The notes: generated from the letters alone by a model not told the origin. A DNA stretch of 64,000 nt from Calditrichales bacterium (GCA_015493745.1 WGCN01000216.1:1-64000), one strand, 5' to 3'; shown: positions 812-10,094, numbered from the stretch's first letter. A program made the numbers and translations.

Positions 812-2518
812 ATGTCTGTTTTTGTAAAGCACGGTTTTTGGGTCTTGTTGCTCACCCTGATATCCTGCTCTCCGCAACCGGAGGCGGATCTGATCATTTA
901 CAACGCCGGGGTAATCACCCTTGATGATGCCCGGCCGACAGCCCGGGCGGTGGCCGTAAGCGGAGACCGCATCGCGGCCGTGGGCAGCGACAGCCTGATC
1001 CTGACCTATCGCACCGCAAAAACAGAGCTTATCGATGCCGGGGGGCAGACGCTGATCCCCGGCTTTATTGAAGGACACGCCCACTTTATGGGGCTGGGTC
1101 AGGCTCTTTTAACCATCGATCTGCGCGCCGCCCAAAGCTGGCCGGAGATTGTGGCCCTGGTCGACAGCGCCGTTCAAAAAAGCGACCCCGGCACATGGAT
1201 TTTCGGCCGCGGCTGGCACCAGGAAAAATGGCTGCGTCCGCCCGTGCCCCATGTTCAGGGCTATCCCCTGCACACATCCCTGAGCGCCGTTTCACCGGAT
1301 AACCCGGTGGTGCTTAGCCATGCCAGCGGTCACGGCATTATGGCAAACCAAAAGGCCATGGCGCTTGCCGGTGTAAACCGGGAGACGGCCACGCCCGACG
1401 GCGGCGTGATCCTGCGTGACGCCTCGGGGCAGCCCACCGGTATTTTTCTGGAAAATGCCGAAGCATTGATTTTACAAGCCTATCGCCGCCGGCAAGGGGA
1501 ACTGCCCGCCGATGCCCGCCGGGCCATGCGCCTGAAAATGTTGCGGGCGGCCACCGCTCACAGTCTGAAAAACGGCATCACCGGTTTTCACGATGCCGGG
1601 GCGTCCTTTGATGATATAGATTTTTTCCGGCAGGCCGCCCGTTCCGGCGAGCTGAAGACACGTCTGTGGGTGATGATCGCGCCCAATGAAAGGCTGACGC
1701 CGGACAAGCTGAAACGCTACCGCATGGTCGGCGCCGAAAACAACATGCTCACCGTCCGGGCCATCAAGCAATATGCCGACGGCGCCCTGGGCTCCCGCGG
1801 GGCCTGGATGCTGCAGCCCTACAGCGACCGGCCCGGAACCAGCGGACAAAACACCACGCCCATGGATTCCATCCTTAAGGTGGCCCGCCTGGCTTATGAG
1901 GCGGACTATCAGGTGTGCACCCACGCCATCGGTGATCGCGGCAACCGCGAGGTGCTGGATATTTATGAGCAGGTTCTGCGCGGCGATATTTCCCGTCGCT
2001 GGCGCATAGAGCACGCCCAGCATTTGGCCGTCGCGGACATTCCCCGCTTTGCCGACCTGGGGGTGATCGCTTCCGTGCAAACGGTACATTGCACCTCGGA
2101 CGGTTTGTGGGTGCCGGCGCGTATCGGTGAAGAACGGGCCCGGGAAGGGGCCTATGTCTGGCAAAAGCTGCTAAAAAGCGGCGCCCGGCTGGCCAACGGC
2201 ACCGATGCCCCGGTGGAGCGTCTTTCTCCCCTGAAAAACTATTATGCCGCCGTCACGCGCCGCCTTTCCGACGGCTCGGTCTTTTTTGGCGATCAAAAAC
2301 TGACGCGGGAAGAGGCTCTGAAGTCACTGACCCTGTGGAACGCCTATGCCGCCTTTGAGGAAAAGGAAAAGGGCAGCATCACGGCGGGCAAGCTGGCCGA
2401 TTTCACCCTGCTGTCCGCAAATCCGCTTACGGTTCCGGAAGAGAAAATTCCCGCCATCCGTGTGCTGATGACGGTGTTGGGCGGCTCGGTTGAATACAAA
2501 GCCCCCGGGCAAAACTAA
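812..2518 (+). CDS. Amidohydrolase family protein (YtcJ-like), predicted lipoprotein
   Basis: ISCSPQPEADLIIYNAGVITLDDARPTARAVAVSGDRIAAVG; GHAHFMGLG metal motif; HAIGDRGNREVLD; NGTDAPVE. Confidence 0.93.
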   Translation: MSVFVKHGFWVLLLTLISCSPQPEADLIIYNAGVITLDDARPTARAVAVSGDRIAAVGSDSLILTYRTAKTELIDAGGQTLIPGFIEGHAHFMGLGQALLTIDLRAAQSWPEIVALVDSAVQKSDPGTWIFGRGWHQEKWLRPPVPHVQGYPLHTSLSAVSPDNPVVLSHASGHGIMANQKAMALAGVNRETATPDGGVILRDASGQPTGIFLENAEALILQAYRRRQGELPADARRAMRLKMLRAATAHSLKNGITGFHDAGASFDDIDFFRQAARSGELKTRLWVMIAPNERLTPDKLKRYRMVGAENNMLTVRAIKQYADGALGSRGAWMLQPYSDRPGTSGQNTTPMDSILKVARLAYEADYQVCTHAIGDRGNREVLDIYEQVLRGDISRRWRIEHAQHLAVADIPRFADLGVIASVQTVHCTSDGLWVPARIGEERAREGAYVWQKLLKSGARLANGTDAPVERLSPLKNYYAAVTRRLSDGSVFFGDQKLTREEALKSLTLWNAYAAFEEKEKGSITAGKLADFTLLSANPLTVPEEKIPAIRVLMTVLGGSVEYKAPGQN

Positions 2519-5232
2519 ACGATAAAGCGCGTTTCGCTGACGGGCGTGCGGCAGTCCATGTCCTGCCCCCGGCTGCGATGATCGGCGATTTCGGCGGCCA
2601 CGCCCACCGTGCGTCCAAGAAGAAAAACCAGAAAACCGATATCCTGCATATCCTGTTCCTTCATACGCCCCTCGCGCCAGGGCCGCCACATCAGCTTTAG
2701 GGAGATGACGGCAATAACGGCGTCAATATTCACGCAATAGACATTGTTGCTGGCGCCCGCTTCGTACAGGGCCTTGACCAGCTCGTGGTAAAAATCCCAA
2801 AAGACATTTTCCACCCCCGCCGCGCGTAAATGGCGGCGGATATACTCTTCGCGGGGATCGATGTTGACGCGCTTGCCCTTAAACACCGGGTGGTTGATGC
2901 AGGGAATACGGCGATAGTTCATGACCCCCCGCAGCTTGGCTTCGTCCTTGTAGCGCTTGTAGGCTGCGGCCTGTTCTTTGGCCAGCTTTTGTATGCCTCC
3001 GGCGTCCGAAACATCGGCCGGATCATTCACCGGATTTTCCTTAAAGGCCTCCAGTAAAAACTGTATGGCCTCGTAGCCGCTTCCGCCGTGGGAAAGCCCG
3101 GTGTTGCTGAGGTAACCCATGAAGGCGGTGGAAATATGGTTGCGGGCGCTGACGCTTTCCTTGGCCCCCTTGGCGCTGATGGTACCCGGGCCGTTGGTCA
3201 GGGTCAGGGCCAGCAGGGCCTGAAATTCCCGCAACTGTTCGGGGGTGGGCGCAAGGTTGAACAGCGCCTGATAGGCCACTTCGGTAAAGGAACGGGTCAT
3301 GCCCGCCTCTTCCTTGCGCAGTTGCCGGAACAGGGTGTTTTCCCCGGGACGGGCGGCGGTAAGCCAGACCGTTTGGGCAATGACCATCAGGTAGGCAACG
3401 ACATCTTCCGCCGTCTGCCGGGCCATCTGTTTCAGCGCCAGGGCGGGATAGATAAAGTGTATGGCCAGCAGGGTAATCAAAAAAAGCGCTTCCTCTTCCA
3501 CCACCCCGCGCGCACAAATAGCCGCGGCTATTTGAAAAAGAACGCTCCGTCTGGGGCTGGCGGCCATTTCCTCCAGCAAGGCCTGGGCAAAGGGACCGCG
3601 GGCTTCCGCGCAAAAGGTCAGCTTTCCGGCCAGTGTTTCCGTCAGGGCTTCCGCCCGGCGCATATCGTAAAGATCGCGCACGGCGGCGGCCCCCAGGGTA
3701 TCCAGTAGTAAAACGGCATGGTTGCGTGCGGTTTTCATGGCCGGGTTGTCGCCCAGCACCGCCAGGGCGCCGGCCAGGGCCTGGTTGGGGGTGGCGCCGT
3801 TGGCCCGCGCCCGCTCGCTGACCTCCAGGGCAAAATCCGGCGGCAGGGAAAGATGGTTGAGGCAGCGGTTCAACAGACTAAGCTGGCTTACCTCGGGATG
3901 GCGGCCGCATAGGGCAAAGATGATATTTTCCTCATAGCTGAAATCGATCAACTCCACAATGGGCCGGCCGTGCAATTCCGCCACCCGGGTTTCCGGATCG
4001 ATGCGTGAGGCGGAGGAGGCGTTGCGCATGTTCCGGCGCATGGGCATGGCGCCCAGTTGCCGGTTGACCTGTTCGATCTGCCCGCGGTAGGGTTCCGGGG
4101 CCGTCTGTTTTTCCTGCTTCAGATGAACCGGCAGATGCAGGTGAAAATTGTTGACAAACCAGGGCTTCAGTCCCAGCGAGCCGGACGGTTCAAAATCGGC
4201 GGACATGTTGTTTTTGGCAAACACCGCCTCCATGGCCAGGGGAATGTGCTGGATGGAGGCCACGCGCACCCCCCGGGCCGAAACCTTTTGCGGATGGTCG
4301 GGGTCGAACACCTCGCAACCGAAATAGGAATCAAACCAGCCCTCCTTGGTCATGGCGTCATCGCCCGATCCGGCCAGGGCGCCGGCGTGGCCGCAGGCCC
4401 TGCTCAGGTTGGACTTCCAGCGGCCGGTAACGCAGACCACGATGGGTTTGTTAAAAGACAATGCGCCCGAGGCGATCAGATCCAGCGCCTGCTTTTCGTA
4501 ATAGCCGCCCGGCTCCACATAAAGGGCCACCGCCTTTGTGCGCGGATCGTTTTGAGCGGCAAATAAAAATTCCGTCAGGGCAAACTGGATGATCACATCC
4601 TTGCCCGAGCTGATGATGGTGGTGGTACCGAAGCCCCGGGTTTTAAGGTATTCGGCCATGGTGGTGCTGAAATTGCCCGAGTTGCTGTGGATGGCCACGC
4701 TGCCCTTGACCAGGGTTTCCTCCGGACTGTCGCCCCCCAGGGCCCCGCCCACGCGCACATGGTGCCAGGAATCGGCCACGCCCAGACAGTTGGCCCCAAA
4801 CAGATCGATGCGGTTGGCCTGACAGATGGCGCGGATCAGCCGCTGATCCTTTACCGAAACCTTTTCGGTGATGATGATAATTTTTTTCAGCTCTTTGTTA
4901 TAGTGGCACAGCTCGGTTACGCCGTTGTACACCGCCTCGGGCGGCAGATAGATCACGCCCGTATCGAAGCTGTGCTTTTCCATCACATCGGCCAGACGGC
5001 TGTAAACGGGAATATCCCCGACCGGGGACTTGAGCAGGCCCGAACGGCCGTATTGCACCCCGGCCACGATATTGCCGCCGCTGTAGGCGTGGGAAACCGG
5101 AGAGACCTTGCGGCTTTCGTTGCCCAGAATGTTCATAATGCAGACCCGGGTTTCCCGGGTGACGATCTCTTCCAGGGAGCGGACGCCCACATAGCAGCAG
5201 TCCAGAGGATGGATATCGGTTTTGTTTTTCAT
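2515..5232 (-). CDS. ATP-citrate lyase alpha-subunit-like protein (CoA-binding/ligase module plus citrate-synthase-like C-terminal module), divergent
   Basis: IHSNSGNFSTTMAEYLKTRGFGTTTIISSGKD; phospho-His motif CGHAGALAGS; C-terminal citryl-CoA-lyase-like NGPGTISAKGAKESVSARNHIST...LSHGGSG and NVYCVNIDAVIAV. Confidence 0.8.
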   Translation of the reverse strand: MKNKTDIHPLDCCYVGVRSLEEIVTRETRVCIMNILGNESRKVSPVSHAYSGGNIVAGVQYGRSGLLKSPVGDIPVYSRLADVMEKHSFDTGVIYLPPEAVYNGVTELCHYNKELKKIIIITEKVSVKDQRLIRAICQANRIDLFGANCLGVADSWHHVRVGGALGGDSPEETLVKGSVAIHSNSGNFSTTMAEYLKTRGFGTTTIISSGKDVIIQFALTEFLFAAQNDPRTKAVALYVEPGGYYEKQALDLIASGALSFNKPIVVCVTGRWKSNLSRACGHAGALAGSGDDAMTKEGWFDSYFGCEVFDPDHPQKVSARGVRVASIQHIPLAMEAVFAKNNMSADFEPSGSLGLKPWFVNNFHLHLPVHLKQEKQTAPEPYRGQIEQVNRQLGAMPMRRNMRNASSASRIDPETRVAELHGRPIVELIDFSYEENIIFALCGRHPEVSQLSLLNRCLNHLSLPPDFALEVSERARANGATPNQALAGALAVLGDNPAMKTARNHAVLLLDTLGAAAVRDLYDMRRAEALTETLAGKLTFCAEARGPFAQALLEEMAASPRRSVLFQIAAAICARGVVEEEALFLITLLAIHFIYPALALKQMARQTAEDVVAYLMVIAQTVWLTAARPGENTLFRQLRKEEAGMTRSFTEVAYQALFNLAPTPEQLREFQALLALTLTNGPGTISAKGAKESVSARNHISTAFMGYLSNTGLSHGGSGYEAIQFLLEAFKENPVNDPADVSDAGGIQKLAKEQAAAYKRYKDEAKLRGVMNYRRIPCINHPVFKGKRVNIDPREEYIRRHLRAAGVENVFWDFYHELVKALYEAGASNNVYCVNIDAVIAVISLKLMWRPWREGRMKEQDMQDIGFLVFLLGRTVGVAAEIADHRSRGQDMDCRTPVSETRFIV

Positions 5233-5241
5233 GAGGCCCCC

Positions 5242-6486
5242 TTAAACAGCGGATTTTTTTGTGGCCAGCCAGTTATCCATCTCCACGGCATATTGCACCA
5301 CATCGACGATGGAGGTGTCGTAGCCGAAGAAGGTGTAGGGCAGTTCCAGGCGGTCAAGGATGTCGCGGGCATAGGCCATGCCCTTGATCAGGTTGGGGCC
5401 GCCCCGTCCCACCACCACGTAAATATCCGGCCGGCCGCTTTGGGCGATGTGGTCGCGCAGGGCGTCGAACATACCCTTAAAGGTGACAAAGATGTCGGTG
5501 TTGTTGGCCTTGCCGCCGATGATCAGCAGCACATGGCTTTGGGCCAGCCAGTGATGAAAAACGATACGGGCGATTTTATACATTTTCTCATAGGGCGGAT
5601 TGCCGCCGAAATCGGTGGAGATGGTGGCCTTGTCGCCCAGGATTTCGGTGGAGGCGCTGTTGGCCCCGCCACCGAACATAAAGGAGGTTACCGTGCCCTG
5701 GGGGTTGATGATCACCACGTCGCTTTGTCCCTGGTAGGTGCGCAACTGGTTGATTTCCTCCTCAAAGGGAGACAGGTCGGTCTGAAAAACCTCGTCGGGC
5801 AGGTTAAGCCGTTTCCAGTGCGGATTGTCCTGATCAAACTGCGCCTTAAAGTCGCAGGCCACGGGGATGAGCCGGCCGTTGCGGTTTTCCATGCGGATGG
5901 GGTTGATCTCCAGCATGATAAAACCGTAATCGTTATACAGCTCCCACAGCTTGGGCAGAAAGCGGGCCAGGGGGCTGATGATCTCCCTCGGGGCTTTCAG
6001 GTTGGTCAGCGCGTCAATGATATGGTAGGCCTTCAGTCCGGTAATGGCGTCAAAGGAGGACTCAACGACCTTATCCGGCGGCAGTTCCTCGATATCCACC
6101 CCGCCGTGATGGGTCAGGGTAAAGTTGACCTTGCGCGTAAGAGTGGAGACGGACAGGTTGAAATAAATTTCATAGGAAGAGGGGATGAACTCCTCAAAGG
6201 TGACGCCGTTGGCGTGGATAACGCGCTCATGAAAGATATGGCTGGCAAAATAGAGTTTCTTTTTTGCCTCCACCGCCTCCAGCGCGCCGGAGACAATTTT
6301 AACCAGGCCGGCTTTGCCCTTTTTGCCCACGCCGCCGTAAAAAACGGGTTTGACTACACAACGGCCGCGCTTATGGATCAAGCGGTTAAGCTCGTCCAGG
6401 GTAGCGTCGGATGACAGAATTTCCGGTACGGGAAAATCGGCCAGCCGCAACAGCTCCGCTCCGAACTTCATGCCGGTAATCTGCAT
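5242..6486 (-). CDS. ATP-citrate lyase beta-subunit-like protein (ATP-grasp / citrate-binding domain)
   Basis: GRCVVKPVFYGGVGKKGKAGLV; FIMLEINPIRM; FGGGANSASTEILGDKATISTDFGGNP; adjacent to the alpha-like gene (9-bp gap). Confidence 0.82.
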   Translation of the reverse strand: MQITGMKFGAELLRLADFPVPEILSSDATLDELNRLIHKRGRCVVKPVFYGGVGKKGKAGLVKIVSGALEAVEAKKKLYFASHIFHERVIHANGVTFEEFIPSSYEIYFNLSVSTLTRKVNFTLTHHGGVDIEELPPDKVVESSFDAITGLKAYHIIDALTNLKAPREIISPLARFLPKLWELYNDYGFIMLEINPIRMENRNGRLIPVACDFKAQFDQDNPHWKRLNLPDEVFQTDLSPFEEEINQLRTYQGQSDVVIINPQGTVTSFMFGGGANSASTEILGDKATISTDFGGNPPYEKMYKIARIVFHHWLAQSHVLLIIGGKANNTDIFVTFKGMFDALRDHIAQSGRPDIYVVVGRGGPNLIKGMAYARDILDRLELPYTFFGYDTSIVDVVQYAVEMDNWLATKKSAV

Positions 6487-6673: not shown

Positions 6674-7561
6674 TCAGCCTTCCGGGGTGACCTTGTTTTT
6701 TTCCGGGCTTTTAAAGGGAATCAGCAACAGGCTGCCCAGCCGGCTATGCTCCTTTTCCCGCATGTGGGTATCCAGGCCGTAAACCAGGCTTTGCGGCTCC
6801 GCCTCGGCATAGGTGCCGAACAGACGATCCCAGATGGAAAAAATATTGCCGTAGTTGGTGTCGGTCAGCGGCAGTTGATAGTGATGGTGAATCTTGTGCA
6901 TGTGCGGGGAGACCAGCACATAGCTGAGCAGTTTATCCAGCTGGCGGGGCACGCGCATATTGGCGTGGGTCAGTTGGGCGAACAGGGCGGAAAGGGTCTG
7001 GTACAGCATCACCACGCCCACGGGAACGCCGGCCACGAAGATGGCCAGGATGGTGAAGGCGGCGCGGAAAACACTCTCACCCGGATGATGACGCAGGGCG
7101 GTGGTCACATCCACTTTGGTATCCGTGTGGTGAATAATATGAAAGCGCCACATAAAGGGAACGCGGTGTTCCACCCAGTGTATCAGCCAGGCGCCAATAA
7201 AATCGAGCAGCAATACCCCTAATACCACATGCAGCCACAGGGGCAGGGGCAGCAGATAAAGCAGGCCGGACTGGTGCTGGCTGGTATAGTCGGCGGCGCT
7301 GATGATGACAAAGGCAAAGCCGAGGTTGACCAACAACGTGGTCAGCGTAAAAAAGATGTTCAGCAAGGCGTGCTGCCACTTGTTGTACTTAAACGCAAAC
7401 AGGGGCAGACTGTTTTCCAGAATCCAGAAAAAGGTAAAACCGGACACCAGAATAATGGTGCGCTGGGATGAGGGAATCTGTTCAAAAAAGTGAATGATAC
7501 TGTCCATGCGGCCTCCGGGAAAATGAAAAGCCAATGTAAAGGATGCCGGCCGGTTTTTCAA
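6674..7561 (-). CDS. Sterol desaturase / fatty acid hydroxylase family membrane protein
   Basis: His clusters HWVEHRVPFMWRFHIIHHTD and SPHMHKIHHHYQLPLTDTNYGNIFSIWDRLFGTY. Confidence 0.92.
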   Translation of the reverse strand: MKNRPASFTLAFHFPGGRMDSIIHFFEQIPSSQRTIILVSGFTFFWILENSLPLFAFKYNKWQHALLNIFFTLTTLLVNLGFAFVIISAADYTSQHQSGLLYLLPLPLWLHVVLGVLLLDFIGAWLIHWVEHRVPFMWRFHIIHHTDTKVDVTTALRHHPGESVFRAAFTILAIFVAGVPVGVVMLYQTLSALFAQLTHANMRVPRQLDKLLSYVLVSPHMHKIHHHYQLPLTDTNYGNIFSIWDRLFGTYAEAEPQSLVYGLDTHMREKEHSRLGSLLLIPFKSPEKNKVTPEG

Positions 7562-7570
7562 GCGGGACTC

Positions 7571-8164
7571 TTACCAGTGCAGCACGCCGTGTTTTATCTG
7601 ATACTTGATGCTGTCACGCAGGGACTCCAGCGGAAACAGTCCGGGGCTGAGCGCCCATTCGTGCAAAACCGAACGCATGCCGCCATAGATGAAGAAGATA
7701 AAGGCCCGGGGGTCGATTTGGATATGAATATATTGCTGGTCGATACCTTTTTGAATGATTTCGGCGAAGGCCTTGAGAAAATAGACATAGTGGGCCTTCA
7801 GCGAATCGCTTTCGTCCTTCAGCGCCGGCTGGTAACTGCGCACAAACAGCAGGGCCCGCTCCGGCTCGTTGCTGAAAACGGCGATAAACAGATCGACCAC
7901 GGCATCGATTTTTTCCAGGGGATCGGTTTGCGGATTATCGCGGATTTCCATGGTGCCGTCGGCCAGGGCCTGCCAGATGCTTTCCAGCAGGCTGTCCAGC
8001 AACTGCCGTTTGCTGTGAAAGCGGTGATAAAGGGTTTTGGTACTGACGCCGGCCTTGCGGGCGATCTCACGCATGGAAGAGGCTTCAAAGCCCTTTTCGG
8101 CAATAACGGTAACGGCGCTTTTTAAAATATGGGCGTCTTTTCTATCAAGATGTGGGCTGGACAT
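7571..8164 (-). CDS. TetR/AcrR family transcriptional regulator
   Basis: ILKSAVTVIAEKGFEASSMREIARKAGVSTKTLYHRFHSKRQLLDSL. Confidence 0.93.
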   Translation of the reverse strand: MSSPHLDRKDAHILKSAVTVIAEKGFEASSMREIARKAGVSTKTLYHRFHSKRQLLDSLLESIWQALADGTMEIRDNPQTDPLEKIDAVVDLFIAVFSNEPERALLFVRSYQPALKDESDSLKAHYVYFLKAFAEIIQKGIDQQYIHIQIDPRAFIFFIYGGMRSVLHEWALSPGLFPLESLRDSIKYQIKHGVLHW

Positions 8165-8368: not shown

Positions 8369-9733
8369 ATGAAAAAGATGATACGCATAGCCAGCGGTCA
8401 GGGCTATTGGGGCGATCGCTGGGACGCGCCTATCGATCAGGTGCGCGAGGGCGAGGTGGACTATCTGGTGATGGACTATCTGGCCGAGGTGACCATGTCC
8501 ATTATGCAAAAGCAAAAATCGCGCGATCCCAACCTGGGCTACGCCAAGGATTTTGTTCCGCTAATGGAAAAGCTCTTGCCCCTGCTGGTGGAAAAGAATG
8601 TTACCCTGATCACCAATGCCGGCGGGGTGAACCCCGTGGGCTGCATGCTGGCCGTGCGGGCCATAGCCGAAAAGATGAACTTTACCGGTCTGAAGATCGC
8701 CGCTGTTTACGGTGATGACATTCTCGATCAACTGGATTCCCTGATCGCCTCCGGCAATCCCCTGAAAAACATGGAAACCGGGGAGGACCTTTCCACCGTA
8801 CGCTCCCGGGTGAGCAGCGCCAACGTCTATTTCGGCGCGCGTCCGGTGGTGGAAGCGCTGGAGCAGGGAGCGCAGGTCATTGTTACCGGGCGGGTCACCG
8901 ACACCGGTATCAGCCTGGCGCCCATGATCCACGAATTTGGCTGGGACTGGCGGGACTGGGACAAGCTGGCCACCGGTGTGGTGGGTGGCCATATCAACGA
9001 ATGCGGCGCCCAGGCTTCGGGGGGCAATTTTTTTGCCGGCTGGAAGGAGGTGCCCAATATGGAGCGCATCGGTTTTCCCATCGTGGAGGCCTATGCCGAC
9101 GGCCATCTGGTGGTCACCAAGCATGAATCCCTTGGCGGCGTGGTCAGTGTGCGTTCGGTAAAGGAGCAGTTGGTCTATGAACTGGGCAATCCCAAAGAGT
9201 ACATCACACCGGATTGCGTGGCCGACTTTTCCAGTATCCGCCTGGAGCAGGAAGGCCCCGACCGGGTACGGGTGTTTGATGTAAAAGGCACGCCCGATAC
9301 CCCCTTTTACAAGGTCTCTATATCCTATTTTGACGGCTATACCAGTATCGGTCAGTTGACCTACACCTGGCCGGACGCCCTGCAAAAAGCGCAAAAGGCC
9401 GATGAGATCATTCGCAAACGGCTGGAGTATCTCGGCGTTTCCTTCGATGATATCCATACCGAGTTTCTGGGGTACAACGCCTGTGGCGGTGATACCGCTC
9501 CGCCCATCGAAGACCCCAACGAGGTGGTGTTGCATATTGGCGTGCGCGGCCATAATTTTCGCGATATGACCACTTTTTCCAAGGAGGTGATACCGCTGGT
9601 GCTGACCGGACCACCCACGGTGACCGGCTTCGGCGGCGGTCGTCCCAAGGTACGCGAAGTGATCGCCTACTGGCCCGCCCTGTTGAAAAAGGAGACCGTG
9701 GAACCCAAGGTGCTGACCATTGAGGTCATCTGA
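8369..9733 (+). CDS. AtuA-family (DUF1446) protein
   Basis: IRIASGQGYWGDRWDAPIDQVREGEVDYLVMDYLAEVTMSIM; VTLITNAGGVNP; IVTGRVTDTGISLAPMIHEFGWDW. Confidence 0.9.
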   Translation: MKKMIRIASGQGYWGDRWDAPIDQVREGEVDYLVMDYLAEVTMSIMQKQKSRDPNLGYAKDFVPLMEKLLPLLVEKNVTLITNAGGVNPVGCMLAVRAIAEKMNFTGLKIAAVYGDDILDQLDSLIASGNPLKNMETGEDLSTVRSRVSSANVYFGARPVVEALEQGAQVIVTGRVTDTGISLAPMIHEFGWDWRDWDKLATGVVGGHINECGAQASGGNFFAGWKEVPNMERIGFPIVEAYADGHLVVTKHESLGGVVSVRSVKEQLVYELGNPKEYITPDCVADFSSIRLEQEGPDRVRVFDVKGTPDTPFYKVSISYFDGYTSIGQLTYTWPDALQKAQKADEIIRKRLEYLGVSFDDIHTEFLGYNACGGDTAPPIEDPNEVVLHIGVRGHNFRDMTTFSKEVIPLVLTGPPTVTGFGGGRPKVREVIAYWPALLKKETVEPKVLTIEVI

Positions 9734-9755
9734 TCCGTAAAAAAAAGGCAAAACC

Positions 9756-10094
9756 ATGAAAAAAGTACAATTGGTAAAACTGGCCCATGCCCGTTCCGGC
9801 GATAAGGGAGACACGGCCAATGTGGGCGTCATCGCCCTGAAGCCGGAATATTATCCCATCCTGGTAAAGGAGCTGACCGAGGAGCGGGTGAAGGCGCATT
9901 TCGGCCGCAATGTCAAAGGCAAGGTGGAACGTTTCGAAATGCCTAACATAGGCGCCCTGAATTTTTTGCTGCACAACGCCCTGGGCGGCGGCGGCACGCT
10001 TACACTAAAACATGACGCGCAGGGCAAGGTGGTCAGCGCCAATATCCTGCGCATGTATATTGACGTACCCGATGAACTGGAGGTGGAATCATAG
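9756..10094 (+). CDS. AtuA C-terminal-like / AtuA-associated small protein
   Basis: VQLVKLAHARSGDKGDTANVGVIALKPEYYPILVKELTEERVKAHF; located immediately after the AtuA-family gene. Confidence 0.85.
   Translation: MKKVQLVKLAHARSGDKGDTANVGVIALKPEYYPILVKELTEERVKAHFGRNVKGKVERFEMPNIGALNFLLHNALGGGGTLTLKHDAQGKVVSANILRMYIDVPDELEVES

Follow-up and report, generated by a model that had tools for sequence, protein, structure and literature searches.

A Calditrichia member of the type II ATP-citrate lyase family with asparagine in place of a catalytic-motif histidine and a predicted second, degenerate lyase module

The 64,000-nucleotide stretch of a Calditrichales bacterium analyzed here (GCA_015493745.1 WGCN01000216.1:1-64000; hereafter, the window) carries an aclB-aclA operon that encodes a Calditrichia member of the already named type II ATP-citrate lyase (ACL) family. 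The pair very probably works as such an enzyme: the ligase half would make citryl-coenzyme A (citryl-CoA), one citrate-synthase-homology module (CSH2) would split it reversibly, and another (CSH1) would be structural. The large subunit, AclA (P0001; 2515..5232, minus strand), has 905 amino acids (aa) in an uninterrupted open frame running from 5232 to 2515. A preliminary description of this DNA had delimited exactly this frame as an ACL-alpha-like protein with altered lyase motifs, a retained phospho-histidine, and about 620 residues beyond it. That ligase reading is borne out, as H282 lies in CGHAGA (4387..4389, minus strand) and 623 residues follow it. The small subunit, AclB (P0002; 5242..6486, minus strand; 414 aa), has ATP-grasp and citrate-binding domains, and its gene lies directly upstream on the same strand, with 9 bases between the two. 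Within AclA, the acyl-CoA-synthetase-homology (ASH) part (residues 23-330; 4243..5166, minus strand) comprises CoA-binding and ligase domains and is followed by CSH1 (about residues 401-640; 3313..4032, minus strand) and CSH2 (about residues 641-905; 2518..3312, minus strand). Pfam recognizes CoA_binding, Succ_CoA_lig, and Citrate_synt (637-885) in AclA, and the NCBIfam citryl-CoA lyase models match it twice, at 411-580 and 648-896. The nearest solved relative of the ASH halves of AclA and AclB is citryl-CoA synthetase (for AclA, its small subunit, 6hxq_A).

The name "type II ACL" was reportedly proposed by Hugler and Sievert in 2011 for tubeworm symbionts. Published primers for the large subunit of type II acl translate to VAKEEWF and NGFEAIA (PMC3522073). 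The former peptide matches AclA residues 294-300, where the window has TKEGWF at 295-300; the latter matches residues 718-724, which read SGYEAIQ in the window and NGFEAIA in several relatives. Furthermore, Magnetococcus MC-1 cleaves citrate although its only ACL genes are postulated type II genes (PMC6783814), and two Nitrospina genes with "very low similarities" to ACL have been assumed to be functional (PMC3578206). Full-length homologues of AclA occur in both groups, Magnetococcales (L080) and Nitrospina (L087 and L091), for which type II or divergent ACL has been reported, and the Nitrospina loci carry the type II AclA family. The primer-site peptides, MC-1, and Nitrospina therefore place the window protein in a known, biochemically undemonstrated family.

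This family is broad. Complete homologues, 904-920 aa long, turned up in a search of 192 genomes, both among relatives and in three distant families, and a scan of GTDB genome contigs gave at least 80 homologue loci, including Nitrospina, Magnetococcales, Desulfobacter latus, Geothrix, Geobacter, Spirochaetia, Ignavibacteria, Melioribacteraceae, and Planctomycetota. The homologues of the first seven of these and of others are equal in length and layout, and AclB precedes AclA on the same strand in nearly all loci with enough contig. Among the matches listed, the nearest relatives of the window AclA are titled Calditrichia or Calditrichota. A search of viral contigs found no relatives.

The altered motifs of AclA are not a sequencing accident, because the residues concerned are identical in every homologue aligned. 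H282, N680, H715, H781, P782, D837, and R895 are invariant across many phyla (81/81; AclA counts refer to an 81-sequence alignment and AclB counts to 62 sequences). Against six type I AclA modules and one citryl-CoA lyase, N680 (3193..3195) aligns with the catalytic-motif His of ADHGP. H781-P782 (2887..2892) falls on the His-Arg of GIGHR, with the His kept and the Arg replaced by Pro; D837 (2722..2724) falls on the Asp of NVDG; and R895 (2548..2550) on the C-terminal Arg of the type I CSH (YRHP), all on the minus strand. H900, R976, and D1026, the human ACLY counterparts of N680, P782, and D837, are named together with R1065 in PMC10115795. This alignment confirms the exchange of the catalytic His for Asn, of GIGHRV for CINHPV, and of NVDG for NIDA, all of which had been proposed by eye. 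The His at the N680 position is found in 6/6 type I AclA, in 10/10 citrate synthases, where the column is invariant, and in 23/24 stand-alone citryl-CoA lyases. The exceptional lyase (L143 / L130:2796-3593) has Ala for the motif His (CIDAG) and adjoins citryl-CoA synthetase genes.

The additional ~280 residues of AclA are present as first described, but the accompanying statement that they have "no obvious identity" does not hold. Profiles and structure prediction identify them as a second, degenerate copy of the lyase module, CSH1. With 54 sequences on each side, the profiles of CSH1 (395-648) and CSH2 (640-905) match over 200 collinear columns (P=6e-12, probability 97.5%), so that the two modules are homologous, and against a profile of type I CSH and citryl-CoA lyase CSH1 scores P=1.5e-5 over 198 columns and CSH2 P=2e-11. 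AlphaFold modeling, which the preliminary description had proposed, was applied to the C-terminal half of AclA (predicted local distance difference test score, pLDDT, 90.7; predicted template-modeling score 0.92) and to CSH1 by itself (pLDDT 91.4). The confident CSH1 model has a fold like that of citryl-CoA lyase; its top structural match is the lyase 6hxp (252 columns of a 256-residue target, probability 1.00, E=1.1e-3), and CSH modules or citrate synthases make up nearly all of the structural matches listed. The identity of CSH1 thus comes from structure and profile-profile comparison; sequence search by itself does not give it, and a PDB profile search with CSH1 returned chance matches only (S100 proteins). 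In the CSH1/CSH2 profile alignment, the CSH1 positions equivalent to N680 and D837 are Pro and Leu, so that CSH1 lacks the catalytic set. It is also weakly conserved, with a mean conservation of 45% at residues 401-645, as compared with 77% in the ligase half (21-300) and 66% at 646-905.

An indication of function comes from the 86 genomes of the family of Desulfobacter latus, in one clade of which type II ACL has replaced citrate synthase. Type II AclA occurs in 13 of these genomes, none of which has a full-length citrate synthase (0/13), and 69 of the 73 genomes without type II AclA have a citrate-synthase-family match. For this contrast, the Fisher value is 2.7e-12 in the 86 genomes and 0.004 within the genus, neither corrected for common descent. 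The sole Pfam citrate-synthase matches in the 13 genomes, besides a 128-aa remnant, are to the type II protein itself, and all 13 have a type II AclB, whereas type I AclB is not found in them (scores of about 50 bits, where true type I proteins score 190-300). The remnant, a C-terminal piece of citrate synthase beside type II ACL (G219:C1:3021914-3022243), looks like decay after replacement. Desulfobacter postgatei has been reported to run the tricarboxylic acid (TCA) cycle with ACL (PMC12743299). In the simplest reading, type II ACL would make citrate in this clade, and citrate would be its substrate.

A different substrate for the lyase or for the entire enzyme, either a tricarboxylic acid other than citrate or a branched 3-hydroxyacyl-CoA, had been raised by the preliminary description on account of the changed CSH motifs. 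Besides the His-to-Asn and Arg-to-Pro exchanges, a divergent AtuA-type gene about 1.9 kilobases away in the window could speak for such a change. However, clustering of the flanking genes shows no conserved AtuA neighbor, and the citrate pocket of AclB is invariant. N328 and T330 of its ANNT motif (N328-N329-T330; 5497..5505, minus strand) correspond to N346 and T348 of human ACLY (N346-F347-T348), and R361 (5404..5406, minus strand) corresponds by alignment to R379; all are conserved in 62/62 sequences and differ in SucC, which has Leu for R361. At the remaining motif position, N329, citryl-CoA synthetase, an enzyme acting on citrate, has Asn as well. Together with the replacement of citrate synthase and the citrate cleavage by MC-1 with type II genes only, this makes another substrate very improbable, and citrate is the likely substrate of type II ACL, as judged from these residues and gene distributions. 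The site of cleavage is a separate question. For human ACLY, the CSH module has been argued to be allosteric and cleavage to belong to the ligase half, the part in which Phe347 moves (model 2 of PMC10115795). By analogy, type II ACL might cleave in its ASH part, with both CSH modules allosteric or structural; N680 and P782 alter positions named in that work, and E123 of the ligase domain, aligned with E599, is invariant in a six-sequence alignment. We set E599/E123 aside as a sign of ASH-based cleavage, since plain succinyl- and citryl-CoA synthetases have the same Glu. Moreover, H781, D837, R895, the HGG, and neighboring motifs are strictly conserved in CSH2 beside a decayed CSH1, which fits chemistry kept in CSH2. 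The Phe347 position is Asn in type II AclB, as in citryl-CoA synthetase, which leaves the cleavage of its product to a separate lyase; this favors cleavage in CSH2. Cleavage in the ASH part is therefore unlikely, and we infer that CSH2 is the lyase and that N680 donates the hydrogen bond in place of the His.

Residues 391-905 of AclA could alternatively be viewed as one enlarged citrate-synthase domain, with 401-640 corresponding to the N-terminal half of citrate synthase. In Foldseek, the two-module model and full-length citrate synthases align from end to end (E 5e-8), and a G-x-x-I-x-x-L cap starts both CSH1 and that N-terminal half. Superposition on citrate synthase is, however, poor (root-mean-square deviation 7-12 Å), and CSH1 by itself covers nearly all of citryl-CoA lyase. 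In profile comparison, CSH1 matches this N-terminal half weakly (P=0.006) when set against its match to CSH2, and for this reason the equation of the two was set aside. A single enlarged domain thus seems doubtful, about as improbable as cleavage in the ASH part. Both views may nevertheless be true if citrate synthase arose from two modules of this kind, a hypothetical link between CSH1-CSH2 and citrate synthase. Tentatively, and with somewhat less doubt than for either of those views, one may combine two propositions: that type II ACL cleaves citryl-CoA with Asn for a near-universal catalytic His, and that its tandem CSH1-CSH2 survives as an analogue of the duplication and fusion by which a single-module citryl-CoA-lyase tetramer would have become the dimeric citrate synthase.

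Several observations weigh against our assignment of a working type II ACL with CSH2 as its lyase. To our knowledge, no type II ACL has been purified, and a PDB sequence search found no type II ACL structure. N680 sets type II AclA apart from nearly all lyases, ACLs, and citrate synthases checked, and the ANNT motif of AclB lacks Phe347, to which a catalytic role in ACLY is given (PMC10115795). Full-length citrate synthase is missing from the 13 type II genomes of the Desulfobacter-type clade, but no search for Re-citrate synthase was made there. In the window's genome, a canonical citrate synthase is also present as a gene separate from aclA, so that type II ACL function is not forced there, and the other neighbors of the Calditrichia operon give no hint of citrate metabolism.

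In view of all these points, the aclBA pair most likely catalyzes reversible, ATP-dependent citrate cleavage. AclB and the N-terminal half of AclA would act like citryl-CoA synthetase: ATP would phosphorylate H282, the phosphate would pass to citrate, and CoA would then give citryl-CoA. CSH2, using H781 and D837, would split this into acetyl-CoA and oxaloacetate, or join the two in reverse, and the N680 amide may donate the hydrogen bond to the thioester carbonyl that the His usually provides. CSH1, its catalytic residues lost, probably forms a pseudo-dimer within the chain, as its structural half, and two AclA chains may thereby recreate the core of four modules that type I ACL has.

The window pair shows no essential difference from type II ACL of Magnetococcus MC-1 (AclBA) and the tubeworm symbionts, with which it has in common the aclB-aclA pair, an AclA of ~905 aa, the primer-site peptides, and homologues in Magnetococcales. 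With type I ACL (Chlorobium AclBA and human ACLY) it shares the phospho-His ligase half, a C-terminal CSH, and the N/T/R of the citrate pocket. In contrast, type I ACL has a single CSH directly after the ligase half, where the window AclA has two (401-640 and 641-905), as well as Asn for the motif His and Pro for the GIGHR Arg, and AclB has Asn for Phe347. The two types form separate clades in our tree; the grouping of type II and citryl-CoA synthetase in this tree was flagged as long branches meeting and is not relied on. The Hydrogenobacter citryl-CoA synthetase and lyase are the nearest solved relatives of the ligase halves (6hxq) and the top structural match of CSH1 (6hxp), respectively, but they are separate proteins, whereas the window AclA is one 905-aa fusion with two lyase modules. 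Citrate synthase, of homologous fold, is a stand-alone protein of ~430 aa with a catalytic HADHE; type II ACL is ATP-dependent, fused to a CoA ligase, and has Asn for the motif His.

Conservation of the genes flanking aclBA is limited to close relatives, and for this reason the AtuA, TetR regulator, and fatty-acid-hydroxylase genes were not used for function. The window contains AtuA (acyclic terpene utilisation) and an AtuA ferredoxin-like domain protein at 8369-10094; the TetR gene (7571-8164) and the fatty-acid-hydroxylase gene (6674-7561) are divergent from them. Genes for isocitrate dehydrogenase or fumarate reductase/succinate dehydrogenase lie near type II acl in several lineages. The window's genome also has two 2-oxoacid:ferredoxin oxidoreductase pairs and a pyruvate-type enzyme, and a reductive TCA cycle is possible in this organism. 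In Geothrix (L046) and other Holophagaceae, type II aclBA is followed directly downstream by a citrate synthase gene on the opposite strand. Another family of the window genome's order has stand-alone citryl-CoA-lyase-type genes of ~265 aa (G007-G017 and G019) in place of the type II ACL found in the family of the window's genome. At L131:533-3905 (G183:C40), a 416-aa SucC-like protein is followed by a 714-aa protein with a SucD-like domain (1-302) fused to a module of citrate-synthase length (about 354-706); this is another ATP-citrate-lyase-like layout and may be the intermediate that PMC5459899 describes for Planctomycetes.

Type II ACL is widespread in likely carbon fixers, yet it is still labeled "postulated" in the literature. 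As far as the searchable literature on type II ACL shows, its tandem CSH module and fixed His-to-Asn exchange have not been described. Citrate-synthase models score type II AclA weakly, with some members under the cut-off, and knowing its layout corrects annotation. The universal natural His-to-Asn change, the lost Arg, and the decayed second module bear directly on the debate about a catalytic versus an allosteric CSH in ACL, and the citrate synthase swap in the Desulfobacter-type clade offers a genetic system for testing the role of CSH.

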